64,000 nt of DNA from Turicibacter faecis (GCF_037076425.1 NZ_AP028127.1:1208001-1272000); one strand, 5' to 3'; positions 21,285-45,315 are shown, numbered from the stretch's first letter. Notes: generated from the sequence alone by a model not told the origin. Numbers and translations are program-made.

Positions 21285-23021
21285 TTATTTTCGTTGCCAA
21301 CGATCAAGGAGTTGAATCACTTGTAAATTCGGCTCTCCTCCTTGGGCGAAGTAAGTCATTAACTGCGCCTGAACTTGATCATGAGCTTGATATTTCGAAT
21401 AAATTTGAGCAAGTTCTAACCGTTGACTTAATGACAACATCGGATTAATCACTTGCTCTATTCGCAAAATCCACTCCATCTGAGAAAGGAGTAGCAATTC
21501 TTCAATCAGATATGTGATCGTTTTAAATTCCTCAGCCCCAAAGGATTCACTCCCTCTCCCCTGAAGACGATTATCAATTTCGTGATAAACCGGAGCATAT
21601 GGGAGAGTTTCCACGCTATAATCTAAGTGACCCGTAAATAAATACATTAAATAATAGTAACGTTCGACCGTATTAAAGCAATCTAATGCCATATATTTTT
21701 TAAAATATTGATCACTCTCCTCATAGTTTCCCAGGTAAAATTGATTTTTCCCATACAAATAAACTAATTGCGAGCTTTTTTCTAGCGGACGACTTTTCTT
21801 TAGGTAACCATTCGCAACTTCGAAACACTTTTGTTTCATTAACAAATCAATTAATAAGACTTGATAACTCGTTTGAACTTGCGGAAGGTAGGCCTCTAGC
21901 TGATGAGCCAAAGTTTCACCCGTTATCCCCATCCTATTTAAACACGATGCAATGGAGTATAAGATTTTATACTGACTCGAATCAATCATTAAATATTTTT
22001 TATAATGATCAATGGCCATTTCATAATCCCCATACCGTTCATAGAGAGTGGCCAGTTTTAAGTGCGGCCATAATCCCTCTGAAGCACTAGAGAACTCAAA
22101 TTGTGCCTCTGGTTTTCCAAGGGTCAAACAAGCTTCATAACTTCGAATAGCTTTCGTAGTAAATCCTAAGCGTTCTTCAAGAGTCCCTTTAATAAACATG
22201 AGATAAGTAAACCTTGGATAAATCTTAATCCCTTCATTTGCAGCTGCGAGGGCCTCTCTTTCTTGACCATTGGCAATAAGTGTATTGATTCTAAAAATCA
22301 TTAATTTGGGCATATAGCCTTGGCGAGGACTTGTGGAGCGGTAAGCCTTATTATAAAATTCAACAGCTTCATCATACTGATGGAGTTGGGCTAACTCATT
22401 GGCATAATTAAATTGATGAAAGGGACTATTTGGATTCTGCTTTAATAACTCCTCTAAAATCGCCTTATTTCGTAACGGTTTATTTTTAGCACTCACCACT
22501 TCTCTCAAGTACCCCGTGTGATAAAATCCTATTTCAGATAACTGTGAGTTAACCACTTGTTTGGTCACTAACTGTTCATGGATCGCCCCTGTATAATAAA
22601 ATCCTTTACTTCTTCGGAAAAGCCGATGATTTAAATTAATCACACAACTGTGAGAATTATTTTTTTGTGTAAAACTAAGGGTTTTGATATAGTAACTATC
22701 GACGTCTTTTTTTTCAAGTGCTTTCCGAAACAATTCACGATCACTTTCTCTTAAATACTCATCGGCATCTAACACAAGAATCCACTCTTGAGTTGCCAAA
22801 GACAACGAATAGTTCCGGGCCTTAGAAAAATCATTTTGCCACTTGTAAGTTTCCACCACAGCATGGTACTTTTGGGCAATTTCAATGGTGCCATCGGTCG
22901 AACCCGTATCGACAATAATAATTTCGCTCACCAAATCTTGCATACTCGCTAAGCATTTTTCCAAGCAGGATTCCTCATTTTTAACGATCATACATAAACT
23001 TACAGAGGGTTTATTTTCCAT
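21285..23021 (-). CDS. family 2 glycosyltransferase with TPR-like C-terminal region
   Basis: A protein of 578 residues. The first part (about 1-230) is a GT2 domain with L-C-M-I-V-K-N-E-E, I-I-I-V-D-T-G-S-T-D-G-T and L-V-L-D-A-D-E-Y (the metal-binding D-x-D). The rest (about 230-560) is built of helix pairs with spaced A/Y/L patterns characteristic of tetratricopeptide repeats. This GT2-TPR architecture is known in peptide and protein glycosyltransferases such as the SunS type, where the repeats bind the polypeptide. The start at 23021 follows GGAGG by 8 bases. It lies downstream of the 964-residue repeat protein gene on the same strand, separated by a terminator; that protein is a plausible substrate. 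Confidence 0.85.
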   Translation of the reverse strand: MENKPSVSLCMIVKNEESCLEKCLASMQDLVSEIIIVDTGSTDGTIEIAQKYHAVVETYKWQNDFSKARNYSLSLATQEWILVLDADEYLRESDRELFRKALEKKDVDSYYIKTLSFTQKNNSHSCVINLNHRLFRRSKGFYYTGAIHEQLVTKQVVNSQLSEIGFYHTGYLREVVSAKNKPLRNKAILEELLKQNPNSPFHQFNYANELAQLHQYDEAVEFYNKAYRSTSPRQGYMPKLMIFRINTLIANGQEREALAAANEGIKIYPRFTYLMFIKGTLEERLGFTTKAIRSYEACLTLGKPEAQFEFSSASEGLWPHLKLATLYERYGDYEMAIDHYKKYLMIDSSQYKILYSIASCLNRMGITGETLAHQLEAYLPQVQTSYQVLLIDLLMKQKCFEVANGYLKKSRPLEKSSQLVYLYGKNQFYLGNYEESDQYFKKYMALDCFNTVERYYYLMYLFTGHLDYSVETLPYAPVYHEIDNRLQGRGSESFGAEEFKTITYLIEELLLLSQMEWILRIEQVINPMLSLSQRLELAQIYSKYQAHDQVQAQLMTYFAQGGEPNLQVIQLLDRWQRK

Positions 23022-23245
23022 TTTAACACCTCCACGGTAAACTCCCCTCATTTTCGGGTGTGTTTTCTTCCCTTTATCATATGAAACGCCTTTAAAATTG
23101 TTCCTCTTAATCGCGCTTAATCACTGAATTTACCAGATGTTTCTTGCGGTTATCCTCACCATCTTCTTGGCGAATAGATGATGCATTCCCCATCAACAAG
23201 GAATCTTTGGTCATCTCTTCCCTTACAGAAATTTAAGGCCACAAT

Positions 23246-23270
23246 AAAAACTACCCTTCAGGTAGTTTTT
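23246..23270 (-). terminator. terminator after the repeat protein gene
   Basis: AAAAACTACC and GGTAGTTTTT pair around a five-base loop (cttca), leaving TTTTT on either strand. Confidence 0.75.
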
Positions 23271-23338
23271 ATCTTTAATTCAATGAAAGAATAGGTTCTT
23301 CATTTAAACAATATTTCCGTTGGTATCATCTATAGGCC

Positions 23339-23449: not shown

Positions 23450-26344
23450 TTAGCCTCGTGTAATTGGTTCATGGGATTCAACCGTTACACGTGCACCTGT
23501 AAGAGCTGTTGTTCCTGGGTTACCCACCTGAACCCCTACTTTTGATGCAGGTGTCGTATTCGTAAAGGCGAAATTTGATGTTTTTTCAATTGGGTCTCCT
23601 AAAGCATAAGTTTCTGTCTCACCTTTTGGAACAACGATCGGTTGAATGGTTGCAGTTACCCCAGCTGGAAGTTTAACAAAAACAGTTTGATCAATCGAAT
23701 GTGCTGTATCGAATAAAGCTTGCTCACTTGAGTTTGGAGCAATTTCTGGTAAATCTGTCGATACACTATATAAACCATATGGACTAATTTTAACTGGTCC
23801 ATCAATTGTTACACTTGGTAAACCTGTGACACTAACTGATAACGGTGCATTTTCCGCTGTGGTTACGGTCATAATATCTGGAATTGTAATATCTAATCCT
23901 GTAACCGTTACCGGTCCATCAAGCGTTACACTTGGTAAACTTGCCACGCTTACTGATAATGGCGCATCTTCTGCTGTAGTTACCATCATGGTTTCTGGAA
24001 TTGTAATATCCAATCCTGTAATCGTTACTGGTCCATCAATGGTTACACTTGGTAAACCTGCCACACTTACTGATAATGGTGCATCTTCTGCTGTGGTTAC
24101 CATCATAGTTTCTGGAATTGTAATATCCAATCCTGTAATCGTTACTGGTCCATCAATGGTCACACTTGGTAAACCTGCCACACTTACTGATAATGGCGCG
24201 TCTTCCGCTGTAGTTACCGTCATGGCAGCTGGGAACTCAACATCGACACCTGTTACTGTCACCGCTCCATCAATGGTCACACTTGGTAAACCTGCCACAC
24301 TTACTGATAATGGCGCGTCTTCCGCTGTAGTTACCGTCATGGCAGCTGGGAACTCAACATCGACACCTGTTACTGTCACCGCTCCATCAATGGTCACACT
24401 TGGTAAACCTGCCACACTTACTGATAATGGCGCATCTTCCGCTGTAGTTACCGTCATGGCAGCTGGGAACTCAACATCGACACCTGTTACTGTCACCGCT
24501 CCATCAATGGTCACACTTGGTAAACCTGCCACACTTACTGATAATGGCGCATCTTCCGCTGTAGTTACCGTCATGGCAGCTGGGAACTCAACATCGACAC
24601 CTGTTACTGTCACCGCTCCATCAATGGTCACACTTGGTAAACCTGCCACACTTACTGATAATGGCGCATCTTCCGCTGTGGTCACCGTCATGACATCTGG
24701 GAACTCAACATCGACACCTGTTACTGTCACCGCTCCATCAATGGTCACACTTGGTAAACCTGCCACACTTACTGATAATGGCGCATCTTCCGCTGTAGTT
24801 ACCGTCATGGCAGCTGGGAACTCAACATCGACACCTGTTACTGTCACCGCTCCATCAATGGTCACACTTGGTAAACCTGCCACACTTACTGATAATGGCG
24901 CATCTTCCGCTGTGGTCACCGTCATGACATCTGGGAACTCAACTGAAACAAATCCGTCAATCGTCACACTTGGAACTCCTGTTACACTCACGGATAATGG
25001 AGTACCCTCAGGCGTTGTTACTTTCATTAAATCTGGTAAGTAAACATCAGCCCCAGTTACTGTAACAACTCCATCAATCGTTACAGTTGGAACCCCTACG
25101 ACACTTACTGATAGTGGCGCATCCTCCGGTGTAGTCACCGTCATGACGTCTGGGAACTCAACATCGATACCTGTTACTTCAACAACTCCTTCAACAGTTA
25201 CACTTGGAACCCCTACGACACTTACTGATAGTGGCGCATCCTCCGGTGTAGTCACCGTCATGACGTCTGGGAACTCAACATCGACACCTGTTACTTCAAC
25301 AACCCCTTCAACAGTTACACTTGGAACCCCCACGACACTTACTGATAATGGCGTGTCTTCTGCTGTGGTCACCGTCATGACGTCTGGGAAGGTCAATTCT
25401 AATCCGCTAATTTCGAGTCCACTAATTTCAATTCCAGCCACTTGAACCGGTCCATCAATCGTTACACTCGGAACTCCTGTTACGCTTACAGTTAACGCAT
25501 CATCAACCGCTGTGGTCACCGTCATGACGTCTGGAAACTCAACATTTACTCCTGTTACTTCTACTGCTCCATCAATGGTGACACTCGCCATTCCAACAAC
25601 ATCGACGGCTAACGCCTCTCCTTCTGTTCGAACAACGACTGGAGGAAGGGTTGCGACATTCACATCAATTGGGTATTCGGCAACAATTGTTAATGGGGTA
25701 TTCACAATGTTAACATCAATCACCTCAGGTTGTCGCTCACAAGTAATCACCGTACGTTGGGTTGCCCATCCACCTGATACATTCCAAACAATAATTTCAA
25801 ACGTATCTCTTTCAGGATCCTCACATCTTGATTGGTAAACCCATTCTCCTGTCTCGCGATCTAAATCTAATACCCCATGACGTGGTTTTTGACAGACATA
25901 GAAAAGGTTACGTGCCGGACAGTTACCATCGACATCAACTCGACCTCTAATTGGTTGTGAACAATCTCCTTTTACATAAACGGGACTTTCAACAATCAAT
26001 TTACAACACTCACAGTCTACCTCAGGAATTTCAACTACAATAGAGCGTTGTCCCATTTCGGGAATAAACGTAATCATCGTGTCCGTTTCCTTAACAACGG
26101 CCATCCCGTCCTTAATAGCCATTAAAACAGCTGCACGTGCATCTAATTCACGATAAAGGTCTCTAGGATAAATGACTTCCATGACCGTTAAACGTAATTT
26201 TGGCTTAGCAAATTCAGTTTGAACCGCTTTTATTTTAAAAACTGGGGACTCATCACGTCCATACTTAGCAAAAAGGTGGCTTCCGCGGGCATTCGAAATC
26301 ATAATCAAACTATTTATTTGATTATTTCCAAAATTGCTATTCAT
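23450..26344 (-). CDS. giant beta-repeat protein (about fifteen 39-residue repeats)
   Basis: A protein of 964 residues. Residues 1-105 are an unrecognised globular head. Residues 105-205 include six cysteines and a segment like the bacterial cadherin-like (tandem-95) fold: P-R-H-G-V-L-D-L-D, E-W-V-Y and D-T-F-E-I-I-V. Residues about 258-850 are some fifteen 39-residue repeats built on the words M-T-V-T-T-A-E-D-A-P-L-S-V-S-V and P-S-V-T-I-D-G. The last 110 residues are a different, Thr-rich C-terminal domain. No signal peptide, membrane segment or sorting signal is seen, so it is not an ordinary secreted wall protein; deposition from inside, as on spores, is one possibility. Seven central repeats are nearly identical at DNA level, a sign of recent expansion. 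The ATG at 26344 follows GAGGTG. Confidence 0.8.
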   Translation of the reverse strand: MNSNFGNNQINSLIMISNARGSHLFAKYGRDESPVFKIKAVQTEFAKPKLRLTVMEVIYPRDLYRELDARAAVLMAIKDGMAVVKETDTMITFIPEMGQRSIVVEIPEVDCECCKLIVESPVYVKGDCSQPIRGRVDVDGNCPARNLFYVCQKPRHGVLDLDRETGEWVYQSRCEDPERDTFEIIVWNVSGGWATQRTVITCERQPEVIDVNIVNTPLTIVAEYPIDVNVATLPPVVVRTEGEALAVDVVGMASVTIDGAVEVTGVNVEFPDVMTVTTAVDDALTVSVTGVPSVTIDGPVQVAGIEISGLEISGLELTFPDVMTVTTAEDTPLSVSVVGVPSVTVEGVVEVTGVDVEFPDVMTVTTPEDAPLSVSVVGVPSVTVEGVVEVTGIDVEFPDVMTVTTPEDAPLSVSVVGVPTVTIDGVVTVTGADVYLPDLMKVTTPEGTPLSVSVTGVPSVTIDGFVSVEFPDVMTVTTAEDAPLSVSVAGLPSVTIDGAVTVTGVDVEFPAAMTVTTAEDAPLSVSVAGLPSVTIDGAVTVTGVDVEFPDVMTVTTAEDAPLSVSVAGLPSVTIDGAVTVTGVDVEFPAAMTVTTAEDAPLSVSVAGLPSVTIDGAVTVTGVDVEFPAAMTVTTAEDAPLSVSVAGLPSVTIDGAVTVTGVDVEFPAAMTVTTAEDAPLSVSVAGLPSVTIDGAVTVTGVDVEFPAAMTVTTAEDAPLSVSVAGLPSVTIDGPVTITGLDITIPETMMVTTAEDAPLSVSVAGLPSVTIDGPVTITGLDITIPETMMVTTAEDAPLSVSVASLPSVTLDGPVTVTGLDITIPDIMTVTTAENAPLSVSVTGLPSVTIDGPVKISPYGLYSVSTDLPEIAPNSSEQALFDTAHSIDQTVFVKLPAGVTATIQPIVVPKGETETYALGDPIEKTSNFAFTNTTPASKVGVQVGNPGTTALTGARVTVESHEPITRG
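23795..25572 (-). repeat. array of 117-bp coding repeats
   Basis: About fifteen tandem units of 117 bp (39 codons). Units between about 24130 and 24960 differ at only a few bases. One variable site alternates between A-A-M and D-V-M codons at spacing 117 (for example 24225, 24342, 24459, 24576, 24693, 24810). One unit near 24930-24960 is shortened, and one near 25400-25450 carries a short internal duplication (ISGLEISGLE). Confidence 0.9.
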
Positions 26345-26371
26345 ATATTCACCTCATTTATAAATATTAAA

Positions 26372-26410
26372 ATTAATCTAGATTAATATGACCGACTAAC
26401 TAATCGGCCA
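26372..26410. promoter_or_regulatory. paired palindromes upstream of the repeat protein gene
   Basis: A perfect 16-bp palindrome, ATTAATCTAGATTAAT (26372-26387), is followed directly by an imperfect inverted repeat, TGACCGA with TCGGCCA (26389-26395, 26404-26410). They lie 28-66 bases ahead of the start codon, which fits operator sites for a dimeric regulator. Confidence 0.4.
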
Positions 26411-26699
26411 CATGATATTATATTAATCATTCTTTATTTCGGCACTACATTCGTTAATGCTACGCCATAAAATTTCTATTTTTAGGTAAATATACTTGGA
26501 AGGCGTTATGAGCCCCTTCAAAGCACCTCCCCTTATATAATACTAGGTACCCAATCCGTTGACATTTTTCACTTGAAATCATCTCGATAAATATACCCCA
26601 TGGAATAGAAAAATACGTTTAAACTGATGAAAGAAAGCTTCCTTTATAGATAAAATAAACAAATCCGAGTGAAAAAAACATAAAAAGTAACAGTAGAAA

Positions 26700-37386: not shown

Positions 37387-40149
37387 TTATAGTAAAGGGG
37401 TTCCTGATAAACGAACAATTGAGAGATACCCAGCTGATCCAGCCTGTTGACTATTTACTACTCGAATTGCTCGTTGAGTCGTATTTTTAATTATGAAGTT
37501 AATTCCTTCATCCTCAACATAAAAGCAATAAAACACATTTAATACAGGGGTTGAATGCGTTCCACGTAGACAAGTGTAATCGCTATATGGTGCCGCTAAT
37601 GGACTTGGAAATCCACCAGGTCGAGTAAAGGTAAGTCCTAATCCATAAGTTGAAACACCCGCTGCTATTGGATATCCTGGATTTAACGGCCCACTTGGGT
37701 AAAGTTGGATAGTCGATGCTAGTAGATAAACCCCTGGCTGACTTATAGTGAAAGTCCCTGTATCCTCATTGTATCGAATCCAAGGAAATTCCCAAACACC
37801 ATTCCAAATAGGACCCCATCCATCAACCGGTGTTCCATTCGCAATTTCTTTTCCGCCAGATTCAAAATCCGGTTGATCTAGAACATACTGTGCAATACCT
37901 ACCGCACTTGGACCCGTTGGCCCCGTCGCTCCGGTTAACCCGCGTGGTCCTTCAGGTCCCGTCGGTCCGGTTGGTCCTCTTAATCCTCGAGGTCCTTGTT
38001 GACCCATTTGACCTGGTTGTCCCTGTGGCCCCTGTTGACCCACCGCTCCCTGTGGTCCTTGTTGACCCTCTGGCCCTTGTGGTCCTTGTTGACCCTCTGG
38101 TCCTTGTGGTCCGGTTGGCCCGGTTAATCCGCGTGGTCCTTCGGGTCCCGTTGGTCCTGTCGCCCCGGTTAACCCGCGGTCTCCTTCGGGTCCCGTTGGT
38201 CCTGTCGCTCCTCTTAAGCCACGCTCTCCTTCAGGTCCGGTTGGTCCCGTTGCTCCAGTTAATCCACGCTCTCCTTCGGGTCCCGTTGGTCCTGTCGCTC
38301 CTCTTAGTCCGCGTTGTCCTTCGGGTCCCGTTGGTCCTGTCGCTCCTCTTAACCCACGTTCTCCTTCAGGTCCCGTTGGCCCTGTCGCTCCGGTTAACCC
38401 ACGTTCTCCTTCTGGCCCTGTTGGCCCAGTCGATCCTCTTAACCCTTGTGGTCCTTCGGGTCCCGTTGGTCCCGTCGCTCCTCTTAATCCGATTCTTCCT
38501 TCTGGCCCCATTGGTCCCGTCGCCCCGGTTAATCCACGCTCTCCTTCAGGTCCTGTTGGCCCGGTTGGTCCGGTTAATCCACGTTCTCCTTCGGGTCCCG
38601 TTGGTCCTGTTGCTCCACTTAATCCCCGTTGCCCCTCAGGTCCCGTTGGTCCAGTTAACCCACGCGGTCCTTCTGGCCCGGTTGGCCCTGTTGGCCCGGT
38701 TGGTCCGGCTAAACCACGTTCTCCTTCTGGCCCGGTTGGCCCTGTTGGTCCAGTTAATCCACGCTCTCCTTCAGGTCCCGTTGGTCCTGTTGCTCCAGTT
38801 AATCCACGCTCTCCTTCGGGTCCCGTTAGTCCTGTCGCTCCTCTTAATCCACGCTCTCCTTCAGGTCCTGTTGGTCCTGTTGCTCCAGTTAATCCACGCT
38901 CTCCTTCGGGTCCCGTTGGTCCTGTCGCTCCTCTTAGTCCGCGTTGTCCTTCGGGTCCCGTTGGTCCTGTCGCTCCTCTTAATCCGCGCTCTCCTTCAGG
39001 TCCCGTTGGTCCTGTCGCCCCAGTTAATCCCGGTTCACCTTTCAAACCAAAATCACCTTTTGGTCCCATTGGTCCAGTTGGCCCCGTCGCCCCTCTTAGT
39101 CCGCGTTGTCCTTCGGGTCCCGTTGGTCCTGTTGCACCTCTTAATCCCGGTTCACCTTTTTCTCCGCATTCACCCTTAGGCCCTTGATCACCTTTTAAAC
39201 CAGATTCACCTTTAGGCCCCCTCGGTCCCGTTGGCCCTGTAGGTCCAGTTAATCCACGCTCTCCTTCGGGTCCCGTTGGTCCGGTTGCTCCGGTTAATCC
39301 ACGTTCCCCTTCAGGTCCTGTTGGTCCCGGTTCACCTTTTTCTCCGCATTCACCCTTAGGCCCTTGATCACCTTTTAAACCAGATTCACCTTTAGGCCCC
39401 CTTGGTCCCGTTGGCCCTGTAGGTCCAGTTAATCCACGTTCCCCTTCAGGTCCTGTTGGTCCGGTTGGCCCGGTCGCACCAGTTAATCCGCGTTCCCCTT
39501 CGGGTCCTGTCGGCCCTGTCGCTCCTCTTAATCCACGTTCCCCTTCGGGTCCTGTTGGTCCGGTTGCTCCCCTCAATCCACGTTCCCCTTCGGGTCCGGT
39601 TGGCCCAGTTGCCCCCCTTAATCCACGTTTTCCTTCTGGCCCTATCGGTCCGGTTGCTCCCCTTAATCCGCGTTCCCCTTCAGGTCCTGTCGGTCCAGTT
39701 AATCCACGTTTCCCTTCGGGTCCGGTTGGCCCGGTCACCCCAGTTAATCCGCGTTCCCCTTCAGGTCCTGTCGGTCCAGTTAATCCACGTTTCCCTTCGG
39801 GTCCGGTTGGCCCGGTCGCCCCCCTTAATCCGCGTTCCCCTTCAGGTCCTGTCGGTCCAGTTAATCCACGTTTTCCTTCGGGTCCTGTTGGCCCGGTCGC
39901 CCCAGTTAATCCACGTTCCCCTTCGGGTCCTGTTGGCCCGGTCGCTCCGGATAACCCACGTTCCCCTTCAGGTCCGGTTGGCCCGGTCGCCCCTCGTAAC
40001 CCTCGTTGTCCTTTTGGTCCCGTTGGCCCCATCGGTCCCTCACAACAACTATCGCAATGATTACATTGATCAGGACAACAGCCTTGCGATTCACAGCTAC
40101 AGTTACTTCTATAATCATTGCAATTACTATCTGGTATGTGTTTTATCAT
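37387..40149 (-). CDS. collagen-like (BclA-type) surface protein
   Basis: A protein of 920 residues in three parts. The 37-residue N-terminal region carries nine cysteines and no signal peptide. Next come 711 residues of uninterrupted G-X-Y, which is 237 triplets, dominated by G-P-T, G-A-T, G-P-E, G-E-R and G-L-T/R. The C-terminal 172 residues form a globular domain resembling the trimeric C1q/TNF-like heads of BclA, with [12 protein letters not shown] as a typical strand. Thr at the third position is the O-glycosylation site in exosporial BclA. The lack of an export signal suggests mother-cell assembly onto spores, but that is inference. The ATG at 40149 is preferred; AGGA lies 10 bases upstream, while a GTG at 40158 is too close to it. 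Confidence 0.9.
37906..40038 (-). repeat. collagen-like triplet repeat tract
   Basis: 2133 bp encode 237 G-X-Y triplets without a break. Larger units of 12-18 residues recur, and two blocks of about 130 bp (around 39140-39260 and 39330-39440) that encode [12 protein letters not shown] are nearly identical. Confidence 0.92.
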
Positions 40150-40515
40150 TTTCTTCACTTCCTGATCGAATTTATTAGGTGGATAAAATATCTATCCTCT
40201 CTAATATATTAAAAAAACCATTTATTTGTCACTGCCTACACCCTTCATCTTTAAATTAATAATTATTTCTACAAATATGAAAATTTACTCACTTAATTAC
40301 ATTAAATCTCAAAACTAATGAAGTTTCTCCCCACTTTATTTCTTGCTTAAAAAACTTTTTTCTTGACATCCCAAAAAAGAGACCCAGGTCCCAATCACAT
40401 AACCCTATTTTCCACTACAACAATATTAAAAAATTCAAAGTCTTTCTCATATTTTGCAAGAAAACCTTATTAAAAATGCCATACCGTATCAAATCAAATT
40501 TTAAAAACCTAAAAC

Positions 40516-44591: not shown

Positions 44592-44625
44592 CTACTAAGT
44601 CAATCCACGAGGGAGGTTCTTGCTT

Positions 44626-45315
44626 ATGTTTTTGTTTCAATTTATCGCCTCACTCTTCTCAAACCTTGTACCATTAGTTGGTGCGATTAATAACCAGGCC
44701 TTTCCTAGCCCATTAACAGCTGAGGAGGAAAAATATTATCTTGAACAAATGGCTAACGGAGACAAAGAGGCACGTGAGAAGTTAATCGAACATAACTTAA
44801 GACTAGTAGCTCACATTGTTAAAAAGTATCAAAATCAAAACGATGATAAAGAAGACCTTATTTCTATTGGTACCATTGGTCTTATTAAAGCCATTGACTC
44901 CTATTCACCTGATAAAGGAACAAAATTAGCCACTTATGCTGCACGTTGCATTGATAATGAGATTCTAATGCTATTTCGTTCATCCAAGAAATCAAGAAAC
45001 GATGTTTCATTATATGACCCGATTGGTTTTGATAAAGAAGGAAACGAAATTTGTCTCATTGACGTTGTCAAAGATAATGGTATGAGTATTAATGACGTTG
45101 TCATTCAACAAATGGATTTGGAAAAAATCGAAAAAAACTTAGATCAACTTACCGAACGTGAACGAGATATAATTGTTCGAAGATTTGGCCTTGGCCATCA
45201 TCAAGAAGAAACACAACAGGAAATTGCTAACTCCTACGGAATTTCCCGAAGTTATGTTTCACGAATTGAAAAGCGCGCACTTTTAAAACTGTACCGTGAA
45301 TTTATTAAAAACTAA
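44626..45315 (+). CDS. sigK: RNA polymerase sporulation sigma factor SigK
   Basis: A protein of 229 residues. The hydrophobic first 20 residues fit the pro-sequence removed during late sporulation. Region 2 has [13 protein letters not shown]; region 4 has [13 protein letters not shown] and a final helix-turn-helix ([16 protein letters not shown]). SigK directs late mother-cell genes for coat and exosporium. The gene is uninterrupted, unlike strains in which a skin element splits it. The ATG at 44626 follows GGGAGG by 9 bases. It is one of three clear plus-strand genes. Confidence 0.95.

Follow-up and report, generated by a model that had tools for sequence, protein, structure and literature searches.

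A gene for a long, repetitive protein in Turicibacter faecis, a mouse gut bacterium, raises the question of where a protein with no recognisable export signal would act and how it would get there. Turicibacter is a common gut commensal that is linked to host bile acid and lipid metabolism and can form spores, and our limited literature search found no account of its spore surface, about which little seems to be recorded. Judging from its sequence and by analogy with known systems, we see about an even chance that this protein is a mother-cell-made, O-glycosylated, disulfide-anchored fibrous protein of the spore surface, working as BclA does with SgtA. If true, spore adhesion or host recognition would have a candidate determinant in this lineage-restricted fibre and its dedicated glycosyltransferase, and the two genes offer a handle that is direct and testable.

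Domain organisation of the repeat protein

The genome of T. faecis is a single contig of 2,431,147 bp, of which a 64-kb stretch, hereafter the window, was analysed. An uninterrupted ORF on the minus strand (23450..26344) codes for 964 residues, confirming the size and position given in the preliminary description, which had left the strand unstated. The predicted protein has a mass of ~99 kDa and a pI of ~4.05. A ribosome-binding site, GAGGTG (26350..26355, minus strand), precedes the ATG start codon and is conserved in Turicibacter sp. UBA7094. We found no hydrophobic N-terminal segment, in agreement with the earlier claim that the protein has no signal peptide, and inspection of the sequence revealed no membrane segment, no LPXTG motif and no other recognised anchor. 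Taken at face value, the missing signal peptide would suit a protein that stays in the cytoplasm, for example as a scaffold or for storage. However, a predicted cadherin/Rib-like domain with conserved cysteines, adhesin-like repeats and a partner glycosyltransferase speak against this explanation, which we consider very unlikely.

The protein consists of four parts: an orphan segment (residues 1-110), a cysteine-bearing segment (111-204), the repeats (236-849) and a C-terminal domain (858-964). The first two parts form the head. Residues 1-110 (26015..26344, minus strand), which start with MNSNF, had no Pfam match up to E=10 and were modelled as strands and two short helices with very low confidence (pLDDT <50). 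The second part (25733..26014, minus strand) is a predicted Ig/cadherin/Rib-like beta-sandwich. All eight cysteines of the protein fall within residues 111-202, and six of them (111, 113, 114, 128, 142 and 202, including a CxCC motif) are common to the heads of T. faecis and UBA7094. For residues 116-204, a two-row alignment yielded an Ig-like sandwich model of modest confidence (pLDDT ~52-76; ~42-76 over the whole of residues 111-204). Rib and cadherin domains were weak Foldseek matches of this model (E ~1e-3), and no profile match supporting a cadherin/Rib-like Ig fold was found. Hence, in the domain previously described as cysteine-containing and cadherin-like, the cysteines stand, whereas the cadherin- or Ig-like nature has just this modest model and the weak Foldseek matches behind it.

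The C-terminal domain (residues 858-964; 23453..23773, minus strand), absent from the preliminary description, is predicted with good confidence (pLDDT ~68-91) to adopt a jelly-roll/GOLD-like beta-sandwich. Its fold matches were all weak and included the GOLD domain of TMED1 (TMt 0.69) and the Ena2A fibre (TMt 0.46). A viral structure library gave C1q/collagen proteins and phage or viral C1q/tail proteins among its weak matches. Pfam returned no BclA-C or C1q-TNF match for this domain, and its structural similarities to jelly-roll, GOLD and C1q folds are weak.

The repeat array and its near-identical core

The array (residues 236-849; 23798..25639, minus strand) comprises 16 units, a copy number that is uncertain because the genome of strain TC023 was assembled from MinION reads with Flye (PMC11165905). 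The modal unit is 39 aa (117 bp), as reported before for an array then estimated at about fifteen repeats. The units correspond to MTVTTAEDAPLSVSVAGLPSVTIDGAVTVTGVDVEFPAA and open with words of the MTVTT/VVVRT type. Most are exactly 39 aa, the off-length units measure 38, 49 and 34 aa, and the last one continues into the C-terminal domain. Tandem Repeats Finder detected a period of 117 with 9.8 copies, 93% matches and a score of 1705, far above chance. Ser and Thr account for 23% of the array, Asp and Glu total 85 residues vs two for Lys and Arg, and the units contain neither cysteines nor Gly-X-Y collagen repeats. By its sequence, the repeat protein is not a collagen and is not homologous to BclA.

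Units 7-12 (24224..24925, minus strand) form a core with 97-100% DNA identity, differing by three silent codon positions and one AA/DV pair, and identity falls to 81-84% in the unit next to them. In the phase used here, this core holds six units instead of the seven nearly identical central units counted earlier. Because of this near-identity, the core likely arose by recent expansion or conversion.

AlphaFold placed ~4 short strands in each unit, in a model that is not confident (pLDDT ~35-40) and does not distinguish a solenoid from another beta fibre. One 39-residue unit is too short for a whole Ig domain. An internal two-fold repeat within the 39-mer was considered and rejected, as 23% of shuffles reached its score. 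The 39-residue repeat represents a new sequence type for the study of fibrous beta structure and of repeat-length evolution.

We also observed that units 2 and 6 (24926-25525, minus strand) differ by +10 and -5 residues within one and the same segment. Unit 2 contains an xISGL micro-repeat which, together with these length variants, hints at a five-residue structural step. Long antisense frames (405 and 100 aa) run across the array on the plus strand (23826-25445); these arise mechanically from the 117-bp periodicity and are not genes.

Family searches and distribution within Turicibacter

Sequence searches of Pfam, NCBIfam, PHROGs and PDB with the repeat protein produced no credible match, in line with the earlier remark that the unit fits no known repeat family; neither a known cytoplasmic family nor a phage tail family was among the matches. 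Pfam, searched to E=1 with the whole protein and to E=10 with its parts, gave no match to DUF3992 or DUF4183, and an Rfam search was likewise without a match. Above-threshold Pfam matches to Thioredoxin_3 (E 1e-10) and Cas_CXXC_CXXC (1e-7), both of them sums of weak matches and neither reflecting a contiguous CxxC-bearing domain, were rejected as annotation because they fall on repeats devoid of cysteines. Three PHROG scores, which were weak and summed over the repeats, were also set aside.

These summed scores would fit a fibre protein derived from a phage or a mobile element and left in the genome as a remnant, as would the weak structural resemblance between the C-terminal domain and C1q/tail proteins of phages and viruses, and a patchy distribution at a variable site, which in relatives carries a transposase, nothing or another glycosyltransferase. 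However, tblastn against 50,697 phage records found no relative, nor did IMG/VR contigs contain one; furthermore, no phage genes were observed next to the repeat gene, and not a single stretch of the PHROG matches was significant on its own. We therefore regard such an origin as highly improbable.

Profile searches with the head and the repeats covered 392 genomes of the phylum and a protein search with the C-terminal domain covered 295, a set apparently drawn from one class (Bacilli), with Clostridia covered by a pattern-based contig scan only. The head was additionally sought in GTDB contigs, IMG/VR and phage records. In these 392, 392 and 295 genomes, respectively, the head, the repeats and the C-terminal domain gave nothing credible beyond the genus. 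Among the genomes searched, UBA7094 was the only other one with an intact head and C-terminal domain, found at the same locus and sharing 70% identity across residues 1-265 and 62-63% identity, respectively. In this assembly, the head closes contig C127 while the C-terminal domain and the glycosyltransferase open contig C125, both contigs ending inside the array. Contig C127 starts with the same potABCD neighbours as in T. faecis, and C125 continues with the same glycosyltransferase and downstream genes. Since the flanking genes match on both contigs, the locus is syntenic in UBA7094 and the assembly break lies within the array. As far as our searches reached, the repeat protein appears to be limited to part of the genus Turicibacter.

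The complete genomes of T. bilis MMM721, T. sanguinis MOL361 and Turicibacter sp. TJ11 lack both the repeat gene and the glycosyltransferase gene at this locus, which is occupied by an unrelated glycosyltransferase gene in T. bilis, no gene of note in T. sanguinis and a transposase gene in TJ11. Furthermore, no orthologue of the glycosyltransferase was found anywhere in these three genomes. The gene pair is thus conserved in two species and jointly absent from three, a co-occurrence seen across five genomes in which the two carriers may share the pair by descent. Because the three genomes lacking the pair include that of the spore-former T. bilis, the pair is not needed for making spores.

A decayed paralogue of the repeat protein is encoded elsewhere in the T. 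faecis genome (C1 ~1,129,150-1,129,910; L002 1340-2097). It retains a short MNSSF start, a remnant of the repeats and the C-terminal domain, contains several stops and a frameshift and is missing the head; some of the breaks could be nanopore errors, but the missing head could hardly be one. At the same locus in T. bilis (L050 11940-13325), the opposite strand carries a different GT2/TPR gene that is preceded, ~250 bp upstream, by a perfect sigma-K-like box (ACCTTTTTTAATATATTGCATATATTA), and the locus seems to be a turnover site for GT2/TPR-type genes. In UBA7094 (L047 4744-7756), a two-component system, a small lipoprotein gene and a VanZ-like gene lie between potD and the repeat gene, all missing from that place in the T. 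faecis window.

The neighbouring glycosyltransferase

A glycosyltransferase gene with GT2 and TPR domains (21285..23021, minus strand) adjoins the repeat gene on the same strand. Its ORF is listed from 23051 (588 aa), and the likely start codon is the ATG at 23021, which is preceded by GGAGGTG. Pfam identified Glycos_transf_2 at residues 18-134 (E=2.7e-20) and several TPR families at ~200-450, so that a GT2 catalytic domain is followed by TPRs as in SgtA and GmaR. The best solved relatives of the enzyme are GmaR (1e-36) and SunS (4e-25), both of which are protein glycosyltransferases, and its orthologue in UBA7094 is 66% identical and located at the same position.

SgtA of C. difficile, which has this GT+TPR layout, adds beta-O-GlcNAc to Thr residues of the BclA3 repeats (PMC7157674). 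SgtA and Listeria GmaR, the latter being the best PDB match, both act on protein Ser/Thr (PMC7157674), and by analogy the T. faecis enzyme, whose gene also lies beside one for a Thr-rich repeat protein of predicted surface location, is predicted to target that protein. Unlike in these systems, the TPR region is longer here (588-aa ORF) and the gene has its own promoter, with a possible terminator separating the two genes. Flagellin, the target of GmaR, is an unlikely substrate because T. faecis TC023 is described as non-motile (PMC11165905) and flagellar genes are missing from the related strain H121 (PMC4807225). The enzyme may act on another protein, for example a collagen-like one that is also encoded in the window.

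Between the two genes lies a symmetric hairpin with a T-rich arm (23244..23272), not above shuffle expectation, that is a possible terminator and on account of which the two genes probably form separate transcripts.

Candidate sporulation-type promoters at the locus

T. faecis TC023 is described as spore-forming (PMC11165905), and its genome encodes sigK, SpoIVA and YabG, all above curated cut-offs. The sigK gene lies intact and uninterrupted in the window (44620-45315, plus strand). The missing signal peptide and anchor, this spore-forming background and the conserved partner glycosyltransferase with its sigma-K-type promoter partly support the earlier interpretation of a spore protein placed without a Sec signal. 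The region upstream of sigK is conserved over five Turicibacter species with CATATAATCTA.

The glycosyltransferase gene is preceded by a sigma-K-type promoter, AC-N16-CATATGATA (23075..23101, minus strand). No other intergenic site in the 64-kb window fits AC-N16/17-CATAnnnTA perfectly, a pattern with a chance rate of 0.043 per kb per strand. In UBA7094, AC-N16-CATACGATG occupies the same place with equal spacing and one mismatch. Upstream of yabG, CATATAATA is kept in five Turicibacter genomes, with AC located 16-17 bases upstream where readable. The glycosyltransferase box agrees with this AC-N16/17-CATATAATA arrangement and with the sigma-K promoter of C. difficile, AC / CATATAAT (PMC3789822), as expected of a member of the sigma-K regulon. 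Given this conserved promoter and the low background rate, the mother cell probably produces the glycosyltransferase. The neighbour of the repeat gene is probably a protein glycosyltransferase that is switched on in sporulation.

Comparison of the region upstream of the repeat gene with those of yabG, sigK and SpoIVA revealed only an imperfect sigma-K-like match and a TATAAT. The former, GC-N17-AATATAATA (26416..26443, minus strand), deviates at the first position of CATA, with A instead of C, and in T. faecis also at -35, with GC for AC; UBA7094 has AC-N17-AATATAATA. No perfect sigma-K or sigma-E promoter was found upstream of the repeat gene, and the AC-N16/17-CATAnnnTA pattern is absent there. 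The TATAAT, a perfect sigma-A-type element within that stretch and ~75-80 bases before the start codon, is conserved in UBA7094, and no acceptable -35 hexamer was listed for it. The leader is strongly conserved between T. faecis and UBA7094 and includes a perfect 16-bp palindrome, ATTAATCTAGATTAAT (26372..26387, minus strand), also conserved in UBA7094. This palindrome was rejected as a regulon marker since, with one mismatch allowed, T. faecis and UBA7094 contain a single copy each.

The conserved TATAAT and the operator-like position of the palindrome would be in keeping with a fibrous adhesin of vegetative cells, surface-bound or released, that leaves the cell by non-classical secretion or lysis and is glycosylated by the neighbouring enzyme. 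Furthermore, Gram-positive adhesins typically carry expandable repeats and Rib/cadherin-like domains, as this protein appears to. Unlike such adhesins, the protein has no signal peptide, LPXTG motif or other recognised anchor, and its 39-aa repeat reaches at most about half the length of an Ig domain. The TATAAT without an acceptable -35 hexamer and the sporulation-type promoter of the partner gene also argue against a vegetative adhesin, which we consider unlikely.

A candidate glycosylated fibre of the spore surface

A glycosylated spore-surface fibre is the simplest account because it covers the missing signal, the sporulating host, the pairing with a glycosyltransferase, the cysteine-bearing head and the expanding array. 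The presence of the glycosyltransferase neighbour suggests, without proving it, that the protein is a sugar-coated fibre of the spore surface; a major doubt comes from the promoter of the repeat gene itself. We propose that the mother cell would synthesise the repeat protein, which would bypass Sec export and be put onto the spore from outside. Its cysteine-bearing Ig-like head would dock in the outer spore layer and be cross-linked there through disulfides, while the very acidic Thr/Ser-rich beta-repeat array would form a stalk, with the copy number determining its length, and the jelly-roll-like C-terminal domain would act as the far-end tip or as an oligomerisation domain. The TPR glycosyltransferase would add an O-linked sugar, GlcNAc by analogy, to Thr and Ser residues of the stalk.

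A mother-cell protein of the inner layers, serving as a coat or interspace scaffold instead of a surface filament, would share the evidence for spore association, and the cysteine-rich head would suit a cross-linked coat layer. However, the long acidic Thr/Ser-rich array and the partner protein glycosyltransferase favour display, and lineage restriction and recent repeat expansion are better suited to a variable surface protein than to a core coat part. Such an inner location is, in our view, quite unlikely.

The proposed surface fibre shares several features with the BclA-type proteins (B. anthracis BclA and C. difficile BclA1-3): the absence of a Sec signal, expression in the mother cell (as proposed here), an extended Thr-rich repeat stalk whose length would vary, a C-terminal end predicted to be a beta-sandwich, and a partner glycosyltransferase gene. 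In contrast, its stalk is built of a 39-residue beta-type repeat and not of Gly-X-Y collagen, no BclA-C domain was found, and a big cysteine-bearing head takes the place of the short exosporium leader of BclA. The endospore appendages (S/L-ENA, DUF3992; F-ENA, DUF4183) likewise consist of beta-sandwich blocks and are Sec-free fibres of the spore surface, as is proposed here, and the Ena2A fibre is among the weak fold matches of the tip. However, the protein matches neither DUF, and ENA fibres polymerise from short subunits whereas here a single long chain carries many repeats. Tentatively, the protein could represent a new, non-collagen class of spore filament, with a disulfide-anchored Ig-like head, a length-variable stalk of 39-residue beta repeats of a new type that is O-glycosylated by a TPR transferase dedicated to it, and a tip of jelly-roll type; as part of this same doubtful reading, it would have arisen convergently as this gut commensal's equivalent of the BclA nap.

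The window also encodes a collagen-like (Gly-X-Y) protein of 923 aa (37387-40158, minus strand) with a cysteine-rich N-terminus and a globular C-terminus, a BclA-like layout. Upstream of its gene, at 40229, we observed AC-N17-AATATATTA, which is similar to the element of the repeat gene, a likeness that carries little weight because the pattern was chosen after both elements had been seen. The collagen-like protein has no evident signal peptide, and its gene is located 11 kb from the repeat gene and ~4.5 kb from sigK.
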